A stretch of 39,483 nt of DNA from an uncultured Gammaproteobacteria bacterium (lineage in GTDB: Bacteria; Pseudomonadota; Gammaproteobacteria; Poriferisulfidales; GCA-002705445): assembly GCA_913065025.1 (NCBI GenBank), contig CAJYAP010000009.1, forward strand, positions 1-39,483, in the 5' to 3' direction. Positions 28,210-38,512 of this stretch are shown here, in pieces (the stretch's first letter is position 1; each line of letters opens with the position of its first letter). The notes under the pieces are model-generated. The model made no database searches, was not told where the DNA came from, and worked only from the letters and a program-made list of their open reading frames with translations. The position numbers and the translations under genes are program-made.

Positions 28210-29515
28210 TATCTTTGCCCTTGTTTTTTCTTAAAACCGCGGAATCTTTGTGAGAACTCAAACCTTCTGCATTTGCAATGACCGCAGAATGTTTTGCTAG
28301 CATTTTTGATGCCTCTTCAGAACATTGAATTATATTAGATCTTTTTTGAAAATCCTGAACCCCGAGAGGCGAGGAAAATTTTGCAGTACCCATCGTAGGC
28401 AGAACATGATTTGAACCTGCGCAATAATCACCAAAAACTTCGGGTGTAAATTCACCTAAGAATATAGCACCTGCATTTTCAACTTTATCTAAATATTTTT
28501 CACTTTCTTTTATTGATAATTGAAGATGCTCAGGGGCTAATTCATTAGATATATTTATAGCTTCATCTATATCTCTTGAATTTACCAATAATCCAAAATT
28601 ATTTAAGGACGACTCTATAATTTCTTTTCTTTCTTGGGTTTTAAGTTTTTTTACCATACATTCTTCTACTTTTTTTAATAAGTCGCTATCTGGTGAAATT
28701 AATATAGATTGTGCTAACTTATCATGCTCTGCTTGTGAAAATAAATCTGCAACAATCCATTCAACATTTGCTGTCGAATCTGCTATAACTAATATTTCTG
28801 AAGGTCCAGCAAAGTTATCAATTCCAACTTCTCCATATAACTCTTTTTTAGCTTCAGCTACATACTGATTTCCAGGTCCAACAATAATATTTACTTTAGG
28901 AATTGTTTTTGTTCCAAATGCTAATGCTGCTATTGCATGCGCTCCTCCAATCCTAAATAACCTATCAACCCCCCCTAAAAATGCAGCTGCTAGGACTAAA
29001 TCGTTAACACTTCCCTGAGGTGAAGGAACCACCATAACGATTTCTCCAACTCCAGCAACTTTTGCAGGGATAGAATTCATTAAGACACAGGATGGGTAAA
29101 CTGCAGAACCACCTGGAACATAAATGCCTGCTTTCTCTATTGGAGATAATTTTTCACCTAACATTATACCTTCTCTAGTATAATTCCAGGATTTAGCTTT
29201 TTGGTGACCGGAAAATTCCTCTATTCTTTTTTTTGCAAATTTTAGAGCTTTTAGCTCCTCCACACTGATTTTATCTAGAGCTTCGGATAATTGTTTTTTT
29301 GGTATCTCTAATTCTTTAGCATTATTAACAGTATAATTATCAAATTTACTACAAAATTTTATTAGAGCTTGATCTCCATTTACTCTTACTTCAGAAATTA
29401 TATCTTTTACTGCGTCTTTAATATTAGTAGTGTTAACTTTTCTCTGAGAAATATGTTTTTTTATTTTTTCAGAGAAACCCTCGCTGCAAGAACTGATTTT
29501 TTTTATATTAAGCAT
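28202..29515 (-). CDS. hisD: histidinol dehydrogenase
   Basis: HisD oxidises histidinol to histidine in two NAD-dependent, zinc-assisted steps. The 437-residue protein shows AGIYVPGGSAVYPSCVLM, the segment RIGGAHAIAALAFGT, IIVGPGNQYVAEAKKELYG, GIDNFAGPSEILVIAD and the zinc-site region FSQAEHDKLAQSILIS. The C-terminal DYCAGSNHVLPTMGTAKFSS block is also present. Its ATG lies inside the end of the DAHP synthase gene (eight-base overlap), and its end overlaps hisC by eight bases, so the three are translated from one message. Confidence 0.97.
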   Translation of the reverse strand: MLNIKKISSCSEGFSEKIKKHISQRKVNTTNIKDAVKDIISEVRVNGDQALIKFCSKFDNYTVNNAKELEIPKKQLSEALDKISVEELKALKFAKKRIEEFSGHQKAKSWNYTREGIMLGEKLSPIEKAGIYVPGGSAVYPSCVLMNSIPAKVAGVGEIVMVVPSPQGSVNDLVLAAAFLGGVDRLFRIGGAHAIAALAFGTKTIPKVNIIVGPGNQYVAEAKKELYGEVGIDNFAGPSEILVIADSTANVEWIVADLFSQAEHDKLAQSILISPDSDLLKKVEECMVKKLKTQERKEIIESSLNNFGLLVNSRDIDEAINISNELAPEHLQLSIKESEKYLDKVENAGAIFLGEFTPEVFGDYCAGSNHVLPTMGTAKFSSPLGVQDFQKRSNIIQCSEEASKMLAKHSAVIANAEGLSSHKDSAVLRKNKGKDNE

Positions 29516-30566
29516 TACTTTTTCTTTTTTCTATTGCCTCCGACAATAAGCTTAAAGATTTTTCTGTATCTTCCCAGCCGATGCAGGAGTCTGTAACACT
29601 TTTACCATAAATAAGATTTGTATCATTAATATTTTGATTACCTTCTACAAGGTTACTTTCTATCATCAGTCCCCTAATTCTACTCTCACCTTTGCTTAAT
29701 TGTTTAGCAACATCATTAATAACATCTAGCTGTTTTTTATGATCTTTCATACTATTTGCATGACTACAATCAACAACTATTTGCTGTGGTAAATTTGCCT
29801 TATCAAGTCTAGCAGAGACTTCTTCTATACTCTTCTCGTCGTAATTAACTTTTTTAGACCCTCCCCTTAATATAGTATGACAATACATATTTCCGCTAGT
29901 AGAAAAAATTGCCGAATTACCATCTTTAGTTACAGAAAGGAAGTGGTGGGCACCTGAGCCTGATTTTATTGCATCAAAAACTATTTGAAGGTTTCCATCT
30001 GTTCCGTTTTTAAAACCTACAGGACATGATAAACCTGAAGCAAGTTCTCTATGACATTGACTTTCTGTAGTTCTTGCTCCTATAGCTCCCCAACTTATTA
30101 TATCTGAAATATATTGAGGACTTATTAAGTCTAAATATTCTGTTCCAGCTGGGATCTCTAAATTGACAATATCCAATAATAGTTTTCTACCAATTCTAAT
30201 TCCCTCATTTACCCGAAAGCTTCCATCTAGCATAGGATCATTTATCAAACCTTTCCACCCAATTGTGGTTCTTGGTTTTTCAAAATACACCCTCATAATT
30301 ATAAATATATTTTTAGATAACTTGTCAGATATTTGTTTTAATTTTTTTGCATAATCCATTGCTGCAACAGGATCGTGTATTGAACATGGTCCAATAACTA
30401 CAAATATACGGTCATCTTTTTTATCTAATATATTTTCTATAGTTTTTCTTGAATTTATAATAGTGTTGGCCGCAGCTTTAGTCAAAGGTAGCTCTTTCCT
30501 CACTTCATCTGGAGTACTTAATTCTTGAGTTTCTATTATTCTTAAATCGTCTGTTTTAAGGGTCAT
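29508..30566 (-). CDS. aroG: 3-deoxy-7-phosphoheptulonate (DAHP) synthase, AroG/F/H type
   Basis: This enzyme condenses phosphoenolpyruvate and erythrose 4-phosphate in the first step of aromatic amino-acid synthesis. The 352-residue protein closely follows the E. coli type I alpha family: VVIGPCSIHDPVAAMDYA, MRVYFEKPRTTIGWKGLIND, WGAIGARTTESQCHRELASG, the segment SCPVGFKNGTDG, and GKSVTDSCIGWEDTEKSL. Catalytic and metal-binding segments look intact. Which amino acid inhibits it (Phe, Tyr or Trp) cannot be told by eye, so the gene symbol is only nominal. Its place between hisG (nine bases upstream) and hisD (overlapping) is unusual, since these his genes are normally adjacent. Confidence 0.95.
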   Translation of the reverse strand: MTLKTDDLRIIETQELSTPDEVRKELPLTKAAANTIINSRKTIENILDKKDDRIFVVIGPCSIHDPVAAMDYAKKLKQISDKLSKNIFIIMRVYFEKPRTTIGWKGLINDPMLDGSFRVNEGIRIGRKLLLDIVNLEIPAGTEYLDLISPQYISDIISWGAIGARTTESQCHRELASGLSCPVGFKNGTDGNLQIVFDAIKSGSGAHHFLSVTKDGNSAIFSTSGNMYCHTILRGGSKKVNYDEKSIEEVSARLDKANLPQQIVVDCSHANSMKDHKKQLDVINDVAKQLSKGESRIRGLMIESNLVEGNQNINDTNLIYGKSVTDSCIGWEDTEKSLSLLSEAIEKRKSNA

Positions 30567-30575
30567 ATTTTTCCA

Positions 30576-33072
<2,497 letters not shown>

Positions 33073-33103
33073 GCCGTATTATTTCACACTATGAGGTATT
33101 TCA

Positions 33104-35617
33104 TCAAGAAACATCCTGATTATTTTCCTTACCTAGTGGCTTGAAAGTTAATAATAATGCTGGCAATAAAGTTAAGGAGGCTAAAAGGGCTGTCAACATA
33201 GCTAAACCAGTAAGTAAGCCAAAATATATCGTAGGAATAAAATTTGATAAAGATAAAATAGAAAAACCAATTACTATGATTGAAGAAGTGTAGTACATTG
33301 CTTTTCCTATACTTCCATGGCATATTTTGATTGAATTAGAATAGTTTCTATTTTGAGAAAATTCTCTTTTAAACCTAATTATATAATGAATAGTATTATC
33401 AACAGCTATTCCTACACTTATAGCTGCTATTGTAATTGTCATTAAATCTAAAGGTATTGATTTTAAGCCCATAAAACCAAGAACTAGGGTTGCTGGGAGA
33501 ATATTTGGCACTATTGCAATAGTTGCCAAATAAAAAGATCTGAACAAAACTACAAACATAAACATTATTGATATAAACACGAAGCCAATAGTTTGTATCT
33601 GAGATGAAAATAAACTTTGAAGCATATTATTATATAGAACTAACATGTTTGTAGTATTAAATCTATCATCAGGATAACCCATCTCGTTAGATAAGAAATT
33701 TTCGACTCTCTGAATAAACTCTTTCCTATTTAATCTTTTATCCGAATCTATAACTCTAAGCGTTATTCTTGTTTGCTCTTCGTCTTTTGATAAATAGGGA
33801 TCTAACAAAACTTCTTTGACTTCTTTAGACAAAGAATCTTTTATAGCACCAACTTGAAGATCTGATAATGACTCATTGTTATTTAGTCCGACGGCTAATT
33901 TGTATAATGTAGCAATTGACAAAACTTTACCTACTTCTGGTTGTAATTCTAAATAATCATGTATTTTTTCTACTTCTTTAAATTTAGGATTGCTTAACCA
34001 ATATCCTTGAATTTCTTCCTTATCATCTCCTAATAGTTCAGAAAGATCATCAAATTCTATATCATTATCAAGCTCTGTTTCATAATCATCATCTTTTTTT
34101 GGCATATCTATAATAATATCAAATGGAGTTGTTCCTCCAAGTTTCTTATCAATTTCGAGCATACCTTGATATATTTCGGTATCTGAATGAAAGTAATCGA
34201 TAAATCTATTTTCAACTTTAATTTTTGAAATTCCAAAAATGCTTACTAAAAAAATTATAAATGCAATCACAATTATCTTTCCATAATTACTTATTGAAAA
34301 AGAAGCAAAACGATTTGTTATATTTTTTGTTATATCACTTTTTTCTTCAATAACTTCATCTGGTAATATAATTAAAATCGCAGGAAAAACTATAAAAGTT
34401 ATAATGAATGCTGAGGTAATACCAAGAGTCATCATATGTCCAAAATCAATTACTGGCCTTATACCACTTACAACAAGTGAAGCAAAAGCAACGATTGTTG
34501 TTAATGAAGTATAGACACAAGGAATAAACATATAATGAATAGTCTCTTGAATAATATTTTTGTTTTTTATATTTGAATTGTTCGACTTAAGCTCTCTATA
34601 CCTAACCGCTAAATGAATAGTCATAGACATAGTAATAATCAATAATATTGCTGCAAAATTAGATGATATTATAGTGATTCGCCAATCTATATAACCTGAT
34701 AAGCCACTAACAAAAATTACTGAGACTATACAACCAAATAATGGAATTATAATCCACCTTATGCTTCTAAAAATAACAAATAAAATTAATACTAAAAATG
34801 CAAAGACTCCAATACCAAATTTTTTTATATCTTGCGCTATAAAATCTGTCATATCTGAAGTTATCATTGGAACGCCACCTAAAAAAATAGAAGCATCTTC
34901 TTTATATTTAGAAATTACTTCTCTTATTTTTTTTATATTCTCTTTTTCTTTGGCTGCATAAACTGAACTGTAATTTTTAAAATCTAGTTCTAAATTTTTT
35001 AAAGAGATTTTTTCCTCAGATGTTAATTCTCTATTTAATCGAATTTCTCGCAAATTATTCCTTTCATTTAACAATTCAAAGTATTTTTTATCCTTAGAAA
35101 AATAAACAACAATAACTGTTGTTGATGAATCTTCACTCATTAAAAGATTTTTATACAATGGACTTGTTGTAAATTCTCTTTTAACAAGATCAAGATCAAC
35201 ATCTTTCGTTCTTAAAGTTCTTTGTTGCTTTGAAAGATCTGAAAATCCTATCTTAGGACTGTCTAACAAAGGCACATCTAATATTGTTAAAACTTCACTT
35301 ACCCCATCTACATAAGATTTTATATCTTTAGAAAGATTATCTAAATTAGTTAATGATTTTTTATTATATATTCCTTGTTTAGGTTTATACGTAACTACTA
35401 CAAAGTCTTCTGTTCCATATCTTGCACTCGTTGCTCTGTAATATTTTAAAGCTTGATCATTCTCCAATACTAGAGAATCAGCAGATGCATCCATTTTAAA
35501 ATTTGGAATGCTGAAGGCAAAAAATAATATAATTGATAAAGCTAGAGAAAGCGATATGTATGGCTTTTCAATTATTGCGTAATCATAGAAATTTATTAAT
35601 TTGGTTATAATTTTCAT
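33104..35617 (-). CDS. MMPL/RND-superfamily transporter (possible lipid exporter)
   Basis: This 837-residue protein has the duplicated RND plan with about 12 membrane helices. There is one N-terminal helix (about 18-36), a large periplasmic domain (about 37-265), five helices ending near 430, and then the same plan again. The second half starts at SISNYGKIIVIAFIIF and includes VGIAVDNTIHYIIRFKRE. The latter sequence is a hallmark of the MMPL/sterol-sensing-like group. The second periplasmic domain contains KLGGTTPFDIIIDMP. Relatives include HpnN, which moves hopanoids and is paired with the MlaC-like HpnM. Pairing with mlaC here suggests a role in lipid traffic, which is an inference. No outer-membrane channel or membrane-fusion gene is nearby, so a classic tripartite drug pump is unlikely. 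Confidence 0.85.
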   Translation of the reverse strand: MKIITKLINFYDYAIIEKPYISLSLALSIILFFAFSIPNFKMDASADSLVLENDQALKYYRATSARYGTEDFVVVTYKPKQGIYNKKSLTNLDNLSKDIKSYVDGVSEVLTILDVPLLDSPKIGFSDLSKQQRTLRTKDVDLDLVKREFTTSPLYKNLLMSEDSSTTVIVVYFSKDKKYFELLNERNNLREIRLNRELTSEEKISLKNLELDFKNYSSVYAAKEKENIKKIREVISKYKEDASIFLGGVPMITSDMTDFIAQDIKKFGIGVFAFLVLILFVIFRSIRWIIIPLFGCIVSVIFVSGLSGYIDWRITIISSNFAAILLIITMSMTIHLAVRYRELKSNNSNIKNKNIIQETIHYMFIPCVYTSLTTIVAFASLVVSGIRPVIDFGHMMTLGITSAFIITFIVFPAILIILPDEVIEEKSDITKNITNRFASFSISNYGKIIVIAFIIFLVSIFGISKIKVENRFIDYFHSDTEIYQGMLEIDKKLGGTTPFDIIIDMPKKDDDYETELDNDIEFDDLSELLGDDKEEIQGYWLSNPKFKEVEKIHDYLELQPEVGKVLSIATLYKLAVGLNNNESLSDLQVGAIKDSLSKEVKEVLLDPYLSKDEEQTRITLRVIDSDKRLNRKEFIQRVENFLSNEMGYPDDRFNTTNMLVLYNNMLQSLFSSQIQTIGFVFISIMFMFVVLFRSFYLATIAIVPNILPATLVLGFMGLKSIPLDLMTITIAAISVGIAVDNTIHYIIRFKREFSQNRNYSNSIKICHGSIGKAMYYTSSIIVIGFSILSLSNFIPTIYFGLLTGLAMLTALLASLTLLPALLLTFKPLGKENNQDVS

Positions 35618-35753
35618 AAATTAAATGCTGAATTGCTTAAAATAAGATTAATATTATCATTATATAGTTTTTATATCAGCATTCTTATGGAATTTAAGAG
35701 ATATAACTTATATTATCTTATATAATTAATTAAATATTTTTTAGAAGAAAATT
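35618..35753. promoter_or_regulatory. divergent control region between the MMPL-mlaC-murA and kdsD-lpt-rpoN operons
   Basis: These 136 bases must hold the promoters for both large operons. TATAAT hexamers occur on the plus strand (35721-35726) and on the minus strand, but no convincing -35 partners were found. An eight-base perfect inverted repeat, AATGCTGA at 35624-35631 and TCAGCATT at 35676-35683, brackets the left part and could be an operator. The remainder is AT-rich with no other structure. Confidence 0.4.
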
Positions 35754-36734
35754 ATGTCTAAATTTAATCAAATTGATGCTTTAAAGCTAGCTAACGAAGT
35801 AATAATTTCTGAAGTTGCAGCTATAAATAATCTTAAGAAAACATTAGGGAAAAATCTTTATCTTTTTTGTAAAGCGATTCATGAATGCAAAGGTAAACTA
35901 ATAATTACTGGTGTAGGAAAATCTGGTCACATAGCTAATAAATTATCAGCTACTTTTTCAAGCACTGGCACCCCTTCATTTTTTATTCATCCAAGTGAAG
36001 CAATGCATGGAGATATAGGTGCTATTACAAATAAAGATTTGATACTTATAATATCTAATTCAGGGTGTACTCCAGAAATTTTACCTTTATTGCCAAATTT
36101 AAAGAAAATTGGATGTAAAATTTTAAGCTTGTGCGGTAACGTAAATTCAAAAATTTGCGAAGAGTCAAACATTTCGTTAAATATTGCTGTGAAAAAGGAA
36201 GCATGCCCTCTAAATCTTGCTCCAACTTCAAGCACTACAACTACTTTAGTTGTGGGCGATGTCATAGCTATTATATTAATGAAAATGAAGAATTTTAAAT
36301 CAACTGATTTTGGAGAAAATCATCCCGGAGGCCGCCTTGGGAAAAAACTTAACTTAAAAGTTAAGGATATTATGAAAAAGAATAAAGATATTCCAGTAGT
36401 AAAAAATAAAAAAAAACTTAAAGATGCGTTGATAGAAATGACAAAAAAAAATTTAGGATGTGTAATAATTTCAAATGAAAAAAATATTGCTATAGGTTTT
36501 TTCACTGATGGTGATTTAAGGCGATCTATTAACAAGCTGCTTGATATTCATGAAACTTTTATTGAAGAAGCTATGACTAAGAAATTTATTTCATGTAAAG
36601 AAAACGACTATGCTACAGATATTTTAAATTTTATGAATAGAAATAAAATTAATTCTTTACCTGTTTTGGATAATAAAAATAAAATAATGGGCGCTATAAA
36701 TATGCATATGTTAATAGAGTCAGGTATTAGATAA
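35754..36734 (+). CDS. kdsD: D-arabinose 5-phosphate isomerase
   Basis: KdsD converts ribulose 5-phosphate to arabinose 5-phosphate for Kdo synthesis in LPS. The 326-residue protein has an N-terminal SIS domain with ITGVGKSGHIANKLSATFSS, the histidine-bearing HPSEAMHGDIGAI, ISNSGCTPEILPLLP and LNLAPTSSTTTTLVVGD. FGENHPGGRLGKKL follows, and then two CBS domains (about 208-326). This is the standard KdsD layout. It starts the kdsD-lptC-lptA-lptB-rpoN block. The usual next gene, kdsC (Kdo-8-phosphate phosphatase), is missing: lptC begins three bases after the stop. Confidence 0.96.
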   Translation: MSKFNQIDALKLANEVIISEVAAINNLKKTLGKNLYLFCKAIHECKGKLIITGVGKSGHIANKLSATFSSTGTPSFFIHPSEAMHGDIGAITNKDLILIISNSGCTPEILPLLPNLKKIGCKILSLCGNVNSKICEESNISLNIAVKKEACPLNLAPTSSTTTTLVVGDVIAIILMKMKNFKSTDFGENHPGGRLGKKLNLKVKDIMKKNKDIPVVKNKKKLKDALIEMTKKNLGCVIISNEKNIAIGFFTDGDLRRSINKLLDIHETFIEEAMTKKFISCKENDYATDILNFMNRNKINSLPVLDNKNKIMGAINMHMLIESGIR

Positions 36735-36737
36735 TTC

Positions 36738-37304
36738 ATGATCTATCTTAAAAAAAATTTGTTAAATATAATTATTATAATTTTTGGATGTGCTGCTATA
36801 TTAATTATAAATAATAAAGCTGAAAATATTTTAGACATCAATTCTAGTAATATTAAAACAATGCCTGACAATATATTTGATCAAGTTAGATATATTGCGA
36901 TGGATGATAAAGGAAATCCACTTTACACAGTTTCAAGTCCAAATATGAAACAATTTTTTGAAAATGAAGTCATCGAAGCTAAGAGTCCTAATATTCTTTT
37001 ATTTAGAAAAGATAAGCCTCCAACAAAAATTATTTCTGAATTCGGTTCTATTGCATATAAGAGAAATAATATAAGGCTTTTTGGTAATGTTAATATGTAT
37101 TTTAAAGAAAAAATAAGCGAACCTTTTTTGAAATTAAATACTGAAGAAATATATATTTATTTAAATGAGCAATTAGCTGTAACCGACTCACAAGTCTTTA
37201 TTAAAAAAAGTAACTCATACTTAAACGGAGTAGGCATGAAAAGTAGTTTAATGCGAGGTGAATTTATTCTTTTTGAAGAAACTAGAGGAAGATATGTTAA
37301 ATAA
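36738..37304 (+). CDS. lptC: LPS export protein LptC
   Basis: LptC is the bitopic inner-membrane partner of LptBFG that hands LPS to LptA. The 188-residue protein has one membrane helix (about 8-26) and then a beta-rich periplasmic domain: FDQVRYIAMDDKGNPLYTVS, with the pattern of alternating hydrophobic strands common to LptC. Sequence identity in this family is low; the call rests on topology, length, and the position between kdsD and lptA/lptB. It overlaps lptA by 11 bases. Confidence 0.9.
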   Translation: MIYLKKNLLNIIIIIFGCAAILIINNKAENILDINSSNIKTMPDNIFDQVRYIAMDDKGNPLYTVSSPNMKQFFENEVIEAKSPNILLFRKDKPPTKIISEFGSIAYKRNNIRLFGNVNMYFKEKISEPFLKLNTEEIYIYLNEQLAVTDSQVFIKKSNSYLNGVGMKSSLMRGEFILFEETRGRYVK

Positions 37305-37794
37305 AATTATATTTTTTATATTTTTTATATATTTATCTTCAGGTGTTTCACTATCGTATTCATATGAACTTGATAGAGAAAAACCAGTTTTTTTAGAATC
37401 TGATTCTGCAAAATGGGACGAGGAATCGCAAAAGAGTACTTATCGTGGAAACGTAGTTGTTACTCAAGGAAGCATGCTTTTAACTGGAGAACTATTAATT
37501 GTAACTTCAAGAAATAATGAAATAAATAGAATGGTCATAACTGGTGAAAAAGCTACATATAAACAAAAAACAGTTAGTGGGAAAATTATTAATGGAGAAG
37601 CTAAAAAGATCCAATATTATGTTGATCAATCCAAAATAATTTTTATAAATAAGGCTGTCTTAACCCAAACAAATAATATTGTTAAAAGTAATAAAATTAT
37701 TTACAACACAGATAGTGAAAATATTACTGCCGGGGATAAAAAGGGAAAGGCACGAGTTAAAATGACTCTTGAGCCAAAAAAAGATAATGAATAA
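37294..37794 (+). CDS. lptA: LPS transport periplasmic protein LptA
   Basis: LptA forms the periplasmic bridge that carries LPS to the outer membrane. The start was set at the ATG at 37294 because GAGGAA lies just upstream (37285-37290) and translation then begins with a signal peptide ([20 protein letters not shown]); a frame extending back to 37258 is open but lacks this. The 166-residue product has the OstA-like strands: [38 protein letters not shown], the segment [14 protein letters not shown] and [18 protein letters not shown]. These are typical of LptA. It overlaps lptC by 11 and lptB by eight bases, so the three are probably coupled in translation. Confidence 0.93.
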
Positions 37795-38512
37795 ATTAGA
37801 TATAAAAAACATTTCGAAAACATATGATTCAAAAAAGATTGTTTCTAGTGTTTCTATAGAAGTAAATACTGGTGAAGTTATTGGTTTATTAGGACCTAAC
37901 GGCGCTGGTAAAACCACATGCTTCTATATGGTTACAGGATTAATATCTCCTGAATCAGGAAAAATATATTTAAATAAAAAAAATATAACCGAATTAACAA
38001 TAGATGAAAGAGCAAATATGGGTATAGGTTATCTTGCACAAGAACCATCAATATTTAGAGGATTAAGTGTGAATGATAATATTCTTGCAATATTAGAACA
38101 AAGGGAGGATATTAATAATAAACAAAAAAAAGAAAAATTATCGCATTTGTTAAAAACATTTAATATTAAACATATTAAAAATACAATGGGAATAAGTTTA
38201 TCAGGTGGCGAAAGAAGAAGAGCAGAAATAGCTAGAGCACTTGCATCTGATCCAAAATTTATATTACTCGATGAGCCATTCGCAGGAATAGATCCAATAT
38301 CAGTAATAGATATTCAAGAAATAATAAAAGATCTAAAAAATAATGACATAGGGATTTTAATTACAGATCATAATGTTAGAGAAACATTAGGGGTATGCGA
38401 TAGATCATATATCTTAAATAATAGCAAAGTTATAGCTGAAGGTAATTCTGAAGAGATTCTTAATAACGAAAAAGTTAAAAAAGTCTATTTAGGAGAGCAT
38501 TTTAAAATGTAA
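37787..38512 (+). CDS. lptB: LPS export ABC transporter ATPase LptB
   Basis: LptB powers LPS extraction by LptFG. The 241-residue protein (from the ATG at 37787) has the Walker A loop [12 protein letters not shown] (33-44), the Q-loop region [17 protein letters not shown], the signature [15 protein letters not shown], Walker [14 protein letters not shown] and the switch histidine in [11 protein letters not shown]. An upstream in-frame TTG at 37769 would add six residues; the ATG was preferred because it aligns with the E. coli start. It overlaps lptA by eight bases, and rpoN follows after 12. Confidence 0.97.

Follow-up and report, generated by a model that had tools for sequence, protein, structure and literature searches.

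An MMPL/RND transporter at the mlaFED position in an uncultured marine gammaproteobacterium as a probable replacement for the MlaFEDB complex

The stretch of DNA analysed here (39,483 nucleotides, hereafter the window) stems from an uncultured marine gammaproteobacterium, the assembly of which comprises about 0.98 Mb and is 83% complete. It contains a compact run of genes for an MMPL transporter, the periplasmic lipid carrier MlaC, MurA and HisG, which diverges from kdsD and the lpt genes (Table 1). In E. coli K-12 the order is murA-ibaG-mlaB-mlaC-mlaD-mlaE-mlaF, followed by the divergent yrbG-kdsD-kdsC-lptC-lptA. With murA as anchor and the order shared with E. coli, the locus was recognised as the canonical mla locus, and by the same comparison, with murA on one side and kdsD-lpt on the other, the MMPL gene occupies exactly the position of mlaFED. 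As the gap between mlaC and murA amounts to just 2 bases, the slot has neither mlaB nor bolA/ibaG. A first-pass annotation of the window had reported a single 837-residue MMPL protein 31 bases ahead of mlaC, as well as the lack of mlaFED, mlaB and a bolA-like gene; spacer length and missing genes were both confirmed.

Table 1. Features of the mla locus and of the encoded MMPL protein, in window positions.
Feature	Position	Strand	Basis or remark
MMPL/RND (HAE3-like) transporter, 837 aa	33104..35617	-	PF03176, 108 bits; own clade; 20-member alignment A1
MlaC-family periplasmic lipid carrier, 203 aa, hydrophobic signal-like N-terminus	32461..33072	-	PF05494, 108 bits, profile 3-165/166
Spacer, 31 bases, MMPL stop to mlaC start	33073..33103	-	sequence
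murA, starting 2 bases past the mlaC end	31202..32458	-	locus anchor, E. coli order
hisG, 4-base overlap with murA	30576..31205	-	ORF list
Divergent intergenic region, 136 bases, between the MMPL-mlaC-murA-hisG run and kdsD-lptCAB	35618..35753	none	
kdsD, anchor at the opposite flank of the locus	35754..36734	+	E. coli order
lptC, lptA, lptB	36738..38512	+	Pfam LptC, LptA/LptD_N; LptB from ABC ATPase translation and position
Acidic insertion, about residues 506-538, second periplasmic domain	34004..34102	-	diagnostic for subfamily; variable length
TM4 Ser331, at the site of the HpnN Asp (8/8 HpnN)	34625..34627	-	Ser 53, Ala 6, Thr 1 of 60
TM10 Asp740, candidate proton-carrying residue	33398..33400	-	Asp in 60/60 subfamily members

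The MMPL-mlaC pair was found unbroken in all eight relatives of the same genus or family in which the locus is assembled, so that the adjacency is not due to chance. In a ninth relative (G001, fetched whole) an assembly gap separates kdsD, at the end of one contig, from murA, with which a second contig starts. The idea that this genome had lost both MMPL and MlaC, at first considered as added evidence, was therefore dropped. In the sister genus (G011) yrbG still sits between kdsD and the MMPL gene. A promoter scan gave matches no more numerous than in shuffled sequences. Two further observations concern the flanks. kdsC (KDO-8-P phosphatase) is missing between kdsD and lptC (window 36734-36738), while in E. 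coli and in genome G160 it follows kdsD. Within the murA-his run a DAHP-synthase-like gene (29508-30566, minus strand), called from its translation alone, is located between hisD and hisG, and this neighbour from the aromatic amino-acid pathway recurs in relatives of the family (L083-L086).

Neither MlaE (PF02405) nor an MCE/MlaD domain (PF02470) was detected in the window's genome or in 19 relatives of its order. The fragmented, incomplete assembly and the gap in G001 could suggest that MlaFED is present and was overlooked; however, MlaE and MCE were absent from 20 of 20 genomes, among them relatives of 97-98% completeness and G018, a single contig that is 98% complete. Missing sequence therefore does not account for the result, and this explanation, refuted at the level of the order, deserves practically no credence. 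MlaC is encoded by a single copy in the window's genome, its Pfam score lying far above the cut-off of 26 bits, and one copy of MlaA (PF04333) was located on another contig (G000 C8:15963-16541, E 2e-68). With the window's genome included, MlaA is present in 18 of the 20 members of the order. Within a smaller set of relatives, the MMPL protein was found in all 24 MlaC-positive, MlaE-negative genomes and MlaA in 22 of them, two being without a match. The search for mlaFED, mlaA and squalene-hopene cyclase proposed in the first-pass annotation thus revealed no complete mlaFEDB elsewhere, one MlaA and no cyclase. Its suggestion of a simpler system in place of the ABC-type complex stood with respect to replacement but not with respect to a set of two parts, because MlaA is usually kept and the pathway would therefore have three.

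Membership of the transporter in the MMPL/RND superfamily is apparent from the Pfam match (108 bits against a cut-off of 20.5, in two stretches) and from hydropathy, with two hydrophobic bundles and a large periplasmic loop before each. The best general match was the HAE3 model TIGR00921, below its cut-off (171 bits against 352), and the score for BstA was far off (40 of 1400 bits). In a tree of 80 proteins, comprising 60 of the MMPL subfamily, eight true HpnN and 12 other MMPLs, the subfamily formed one clade (SH-aLRT 99) and HpnN a separate one (100), so the tree that the first-pass annotation had called for sets the protein apart from both HpnN and other MMPLs.

These results bear on whether MMPL and MlaC are a divergent HpnN-HpnM pair and thus a hopanoid or sterol system. 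Among NCBIfam models, HpnM (TIGR03481, 61 of 160 bits) fits the carrier better than does E. coli-type MlaC (39 of 195), both below cut-off, the MMPL protein matches HpnN weakly, and relatives in sister family f2 have squalene-cyclase-family matches. However, HpnN scores are far under their cut-offs (TIGR03480, 98 of 752 bits; NF052374, 84 of 1100), as is that for HpnM, all 20 subfamily members give only weak matches to the HpnN model (best E 7e-42), no member of the order matches TIGR03480 at 1e-60, true HpnN is a separate and fully supported clade, and squalene-hopene cyclase was detected in 0/12 genomes of the window's family, its own included. HpnN membership was consequently ruled out by score and tree, and a hopanoid or sterol role, largely refuted for the window's genome, is very improbable; it would be tenable only if the substrate were a hopanoid or sterol taken up from outside. 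The likeness to HpnN-HpnM that the first-pass annotation had remarked on, without hopanoid genes, was borne out in that the architecture parallels HpnM-MlaA-HpnN clusters. As for f2, the cyclase-family matches (G012, G013, G015, G017, G018) lie inside open frames of about 1190 aa.

The subfamily is marked by an acidic insertion with a median net charge of -12 in its 60 members, compared with 0 in the 12 other MMPLs and -4.5 in the eight HpnN. It is possibly a candidate region for docking of the carrier, which stays a guess, since the net charge of MlaC does not follow the partner type (p = 0.17); a basic charge of MlaC as counterpart of the insertion was dropped for this reason. In addition to the residues in Table 1, His335 and His744 are invariant in the subfamily. 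The nearest solved structures by sequence are the HpnN entries 6wu0 and 5khn, which match mainly in the membrane bundles, and profile similarity to NPC1 is very weak.

The same set of 274 genomes of the class was searched for the MMPL protein (E <= 1e-80), MlaE and MlaC. MlaE is missing in 30 of them, and among these MlaC was retained in 21/21 genomes with the MMPL subfamily as against 0/9 without it (Fisher p = 7e-8). Considering MlaC-positive genomes, the MMPL protein occurs in 21/21 without MlaE and in 25/231 with it (p = 3e-18). The 21 genomes span about 16 families, genomes of one family not being independent draws, and the association covers this one class, to which Nitrospinota and Nitrospirota add linkage alone. 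In a comparison of distances from which the MurA signal had been removed, MMPL and MlaC were correlated as well (partial r 0.47, permutation p 0.0008; a weak test with 12 genomes).

Linkage was found to be recurrent. Six gammaproteobacterial families link the MMPL gene to mlaC and/or mlaA, two of them with whole mlaA-MMPL-mlaC clusters: the order is MMPL-mlaC-murA in the window's family (f1), mlaA-MMPL-mlaC in f53 (L026, L193) and MMPL-mlaC-mlaA at the murA / yrbG-kdsD site in f144 (L190, L194); in f121 (L200, L201) the gene stands ahead of mlaC-murA-hisG, with MlaE elsewhere in the genome, in f99 (L189) it overlaps mlaA, and in f28 (L185) it follows mlaA. Beyond the class it immediately precedes mlaC in one Nitrospirota (L107) and two Nitrospinota records (L098, L125), and the two lie one gene apart in further records (L088, L089, L100-L102). 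The pair, for which the first-pass annotation had proposed a check of lineages without mlaFED, thus recurs in other lineages, and in genomes lacking MlaFED the presence of the MMPL protein predicts retention of MlaC. Some genomes are noteworthy in themselves. G044, which is without MlaE, carries a second, long-branched subfamily member right after mlaA (L185, C2 8063-11514) and, besides it, a separate mlaC-mlaA pair (L238). G252 possesses two subfamily copies, each adjoining its own mlaC (L173, L201), in addition to MlaE and five MlaC in total, and is well suited to studies of partner specificity. A plasmid search yielded distant MMPL relatives alone.

It could be argued that the neighbourhood is a coincidence, the MMPL protein exporting something unrelated and the lone MlaC being a relic that has a different partner or no partner at all. 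The same MMPL gene indeed adjoins mpl, ubiX or pfp, at a distance from mla genes, in most MlaE-positive genomes and in many Gammaproteobacteria (e.g., Zhongshania, Microbulbifer, Porticoccus). Yet the association of 21/21 versus 0/9 over about 16 families speaks against coincidence, as do the independent linkages to mlaC and mlaA, which were seen in several families and in more than one phylum; we regard coincidence as improbable. Replacement of MlaFED by the MMPL protein, as first proposed from the window, is instead well supported by comparative genomics, and we consider it probable that the protein took over the inner-membrane job of MlaFEDB, even though several MlaE-negative genomes do not have the gene adjacent to mlaC.

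Also counted against replacement is the presence of the subfamily in 26/244 MlaE-positive genomes of the class, usually distant from mla genes; Marinobacter and Alcanivorax are among the marine genera that carry it. Since it occurs in genomes that still possess MlaFED, the takeover was probably made by a lipid transporter already at hand rather than by a gene invented as a replacement. Families f5 and f157 each include one genome with both systems and one with the MMPL protein only, while f156 includes one with MlaE only and one with the MMPL protein only. On the tree of MMPL proteins, absence of MlaE required 12 changes, and well-supported branches force six of these or more (quick method). 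Decay at the former mlaFED site was observed where MlaFED was lost and the MMPL gene is located elsewhere in the genome. In G050 kdsD directly abuts mlaC and mlaFED is absent, in G022 yrbG alone remains between them, again without mlaFED, and G060 has an IS1595-like transposase fragment, named by eye, at the old site. An ORF ahead of mlaC in G021 resembles the C-terminus of MlaD (23 bits against a small custom profile; no match in Pfam), which is suggestive only of a probable 3' relic of mlaD.

In E. coli-type Mla, phospholipid passes from MlaA and MlaC to MlaFEDB by way of MlaD, on which MlaC docks. The lack of a MlaD-like domain in the present system was counted against replacement. RND proteins run on proton flow, and if the MMPL protein takes or gives the cargo of MlaC directly, the pathway would run on proton-motive force. 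The best reading in our opinion is hence a three-part MlaA-MlaC-MMPL pathway with proton-motive force in place of ATP. The outer-membrane lipoprotein MlaA would pass phospholipid to the soluble MlaC, which would traverse the periplasm and dock on the porter domains of the MMPL protein, perhaps via the acidic insertion; the MMPL protein would then move the lipid between MlaC and the inner membrane by a proton relay that may include Asp740, His744 and His335. Proton-motive force would thereby substitute for ATP hydrolysis by MlaF, and the periplasmic domains of the RND protein for the MlaD ring. On a wider scale, we lean towards the view that MlaC docks on a single RND protein, which stands in for the ATP-driven MlaFEDB complex, and that this proton-driven pathway arose several times, since an RND transporter widespread in Gammaproteobacteria was already sharing MlaC or MlaA, so that MlaFED could be lost.

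Transport function and direction had been put forward as inference in the first-pass annotation and keep that standing, as does the substrate. Given replacement, the retrograde direction, for which the transfer of sterol from NPC2 to NPC1 offers an analogy, is slightly favoured by the retention of MlaA. Export is argued from the likeness to HpnN: the MMPL protein would load MlaC with phospholipid or another lipid for the outer membrane, the reverse of E. coli, and retrograde clearance would be lost or done otherwise. HpnN is the nearest solved relative, its clusters hold genes for HpnM, of the MlaC family, and MlaA, and it is described as moving hopanoids from the inner membrane towards the outer one in the passages of PMC6394551 and PMC10942540 that cite Doughty 2011 and Kumar 2017. 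However, MlaA, the retrograde donor at the outer membrane of E. coli, is present in 22/24 of the MlaE-less, MlaC-positive relatives, and the Asp in TM4 of HpnN is replaced by Ser or Ala in the subfamily, so that energisation does not simply follow the HpnN scheme. Such anterograde export is accordingly the less likely direction, though a serious one.

A lineage that keeps MlaC and MlaA with an RND pump represents a natural experiment on what MlaC needs from its inner-membrane partner, and bears on the long debate over direction and energy source of Mla transport. It also offers a function for an MMPL subfamily that is large, has no name so far and is found in Gammaproteobacteria, Nitrospinota and Nitrospirota. 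If the proposed pathway is true, the two engines, in species possessing both, may share one carrier, working either in parallel or in opposite directions.

A literature search, mostly without subscription journals, so that an earlier account is possible, gave no description of an RND protein replacing MlaFED or of MlaC with an MMPL protein. With E. coli-type Mla the system shares the locus between kdsD/lpt and murA, the carrier family PF05494 and the lipoprotein family PF04333, here encoded elsewhere in the genome, whereas it has lost the MlaFE ABC transporter, the MCE ring of MlaD and the STAS protein MlaB and has one RND protein instead. In eukaryotes NPC2 gives sterol to the RND-fold NPC1, likewise a soluble carrier serving an RND-fold membrane protein, but the carrier is unrelated. 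Veillonella possesses a Mla system that is also reduced, but in the opposite way, with MlaEFD kept and MlaA and MlaC absent (PMC10665443). Sterol transport by BstA-BstB-BstC in Methylococcus resembles the system in combining an RND protein with periplasmic lipid-binding proteins, although the Pfam family given for BstB is a phosphonate-binding one and not MlaC (PMC10942540). Monoterpene export by AmeABCD in Castellaniella likewise relies on a HAE3-type RND protein within an envelope system of several parts, its partners being DUF1302, DUF1329/LolA-like and COG4447 proteins instead of MlaC and MlaA (PMC6394551). HpnN-HpnM hopanoid transport has in common the pairing of a HAE3 RND protein with a MlaC-family carrier; the window's system differs in its RND clade, its scores below cut-off, the lack of hopanoid genes in the family, Ser for Asp in TM4, the acidic insertion and the position at the mla locus. 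A hopanoid transporter cluster with HpnM (204 bits), MlaA and HpnN (976 bits) was found in G084 (L230, C51 5357-9979), and as the three families occur together in hopanoid clusters, RND with MlaC and MlaA is a known type of architecture, which the present system parallels with a different clade and, presumably, a different substrate.
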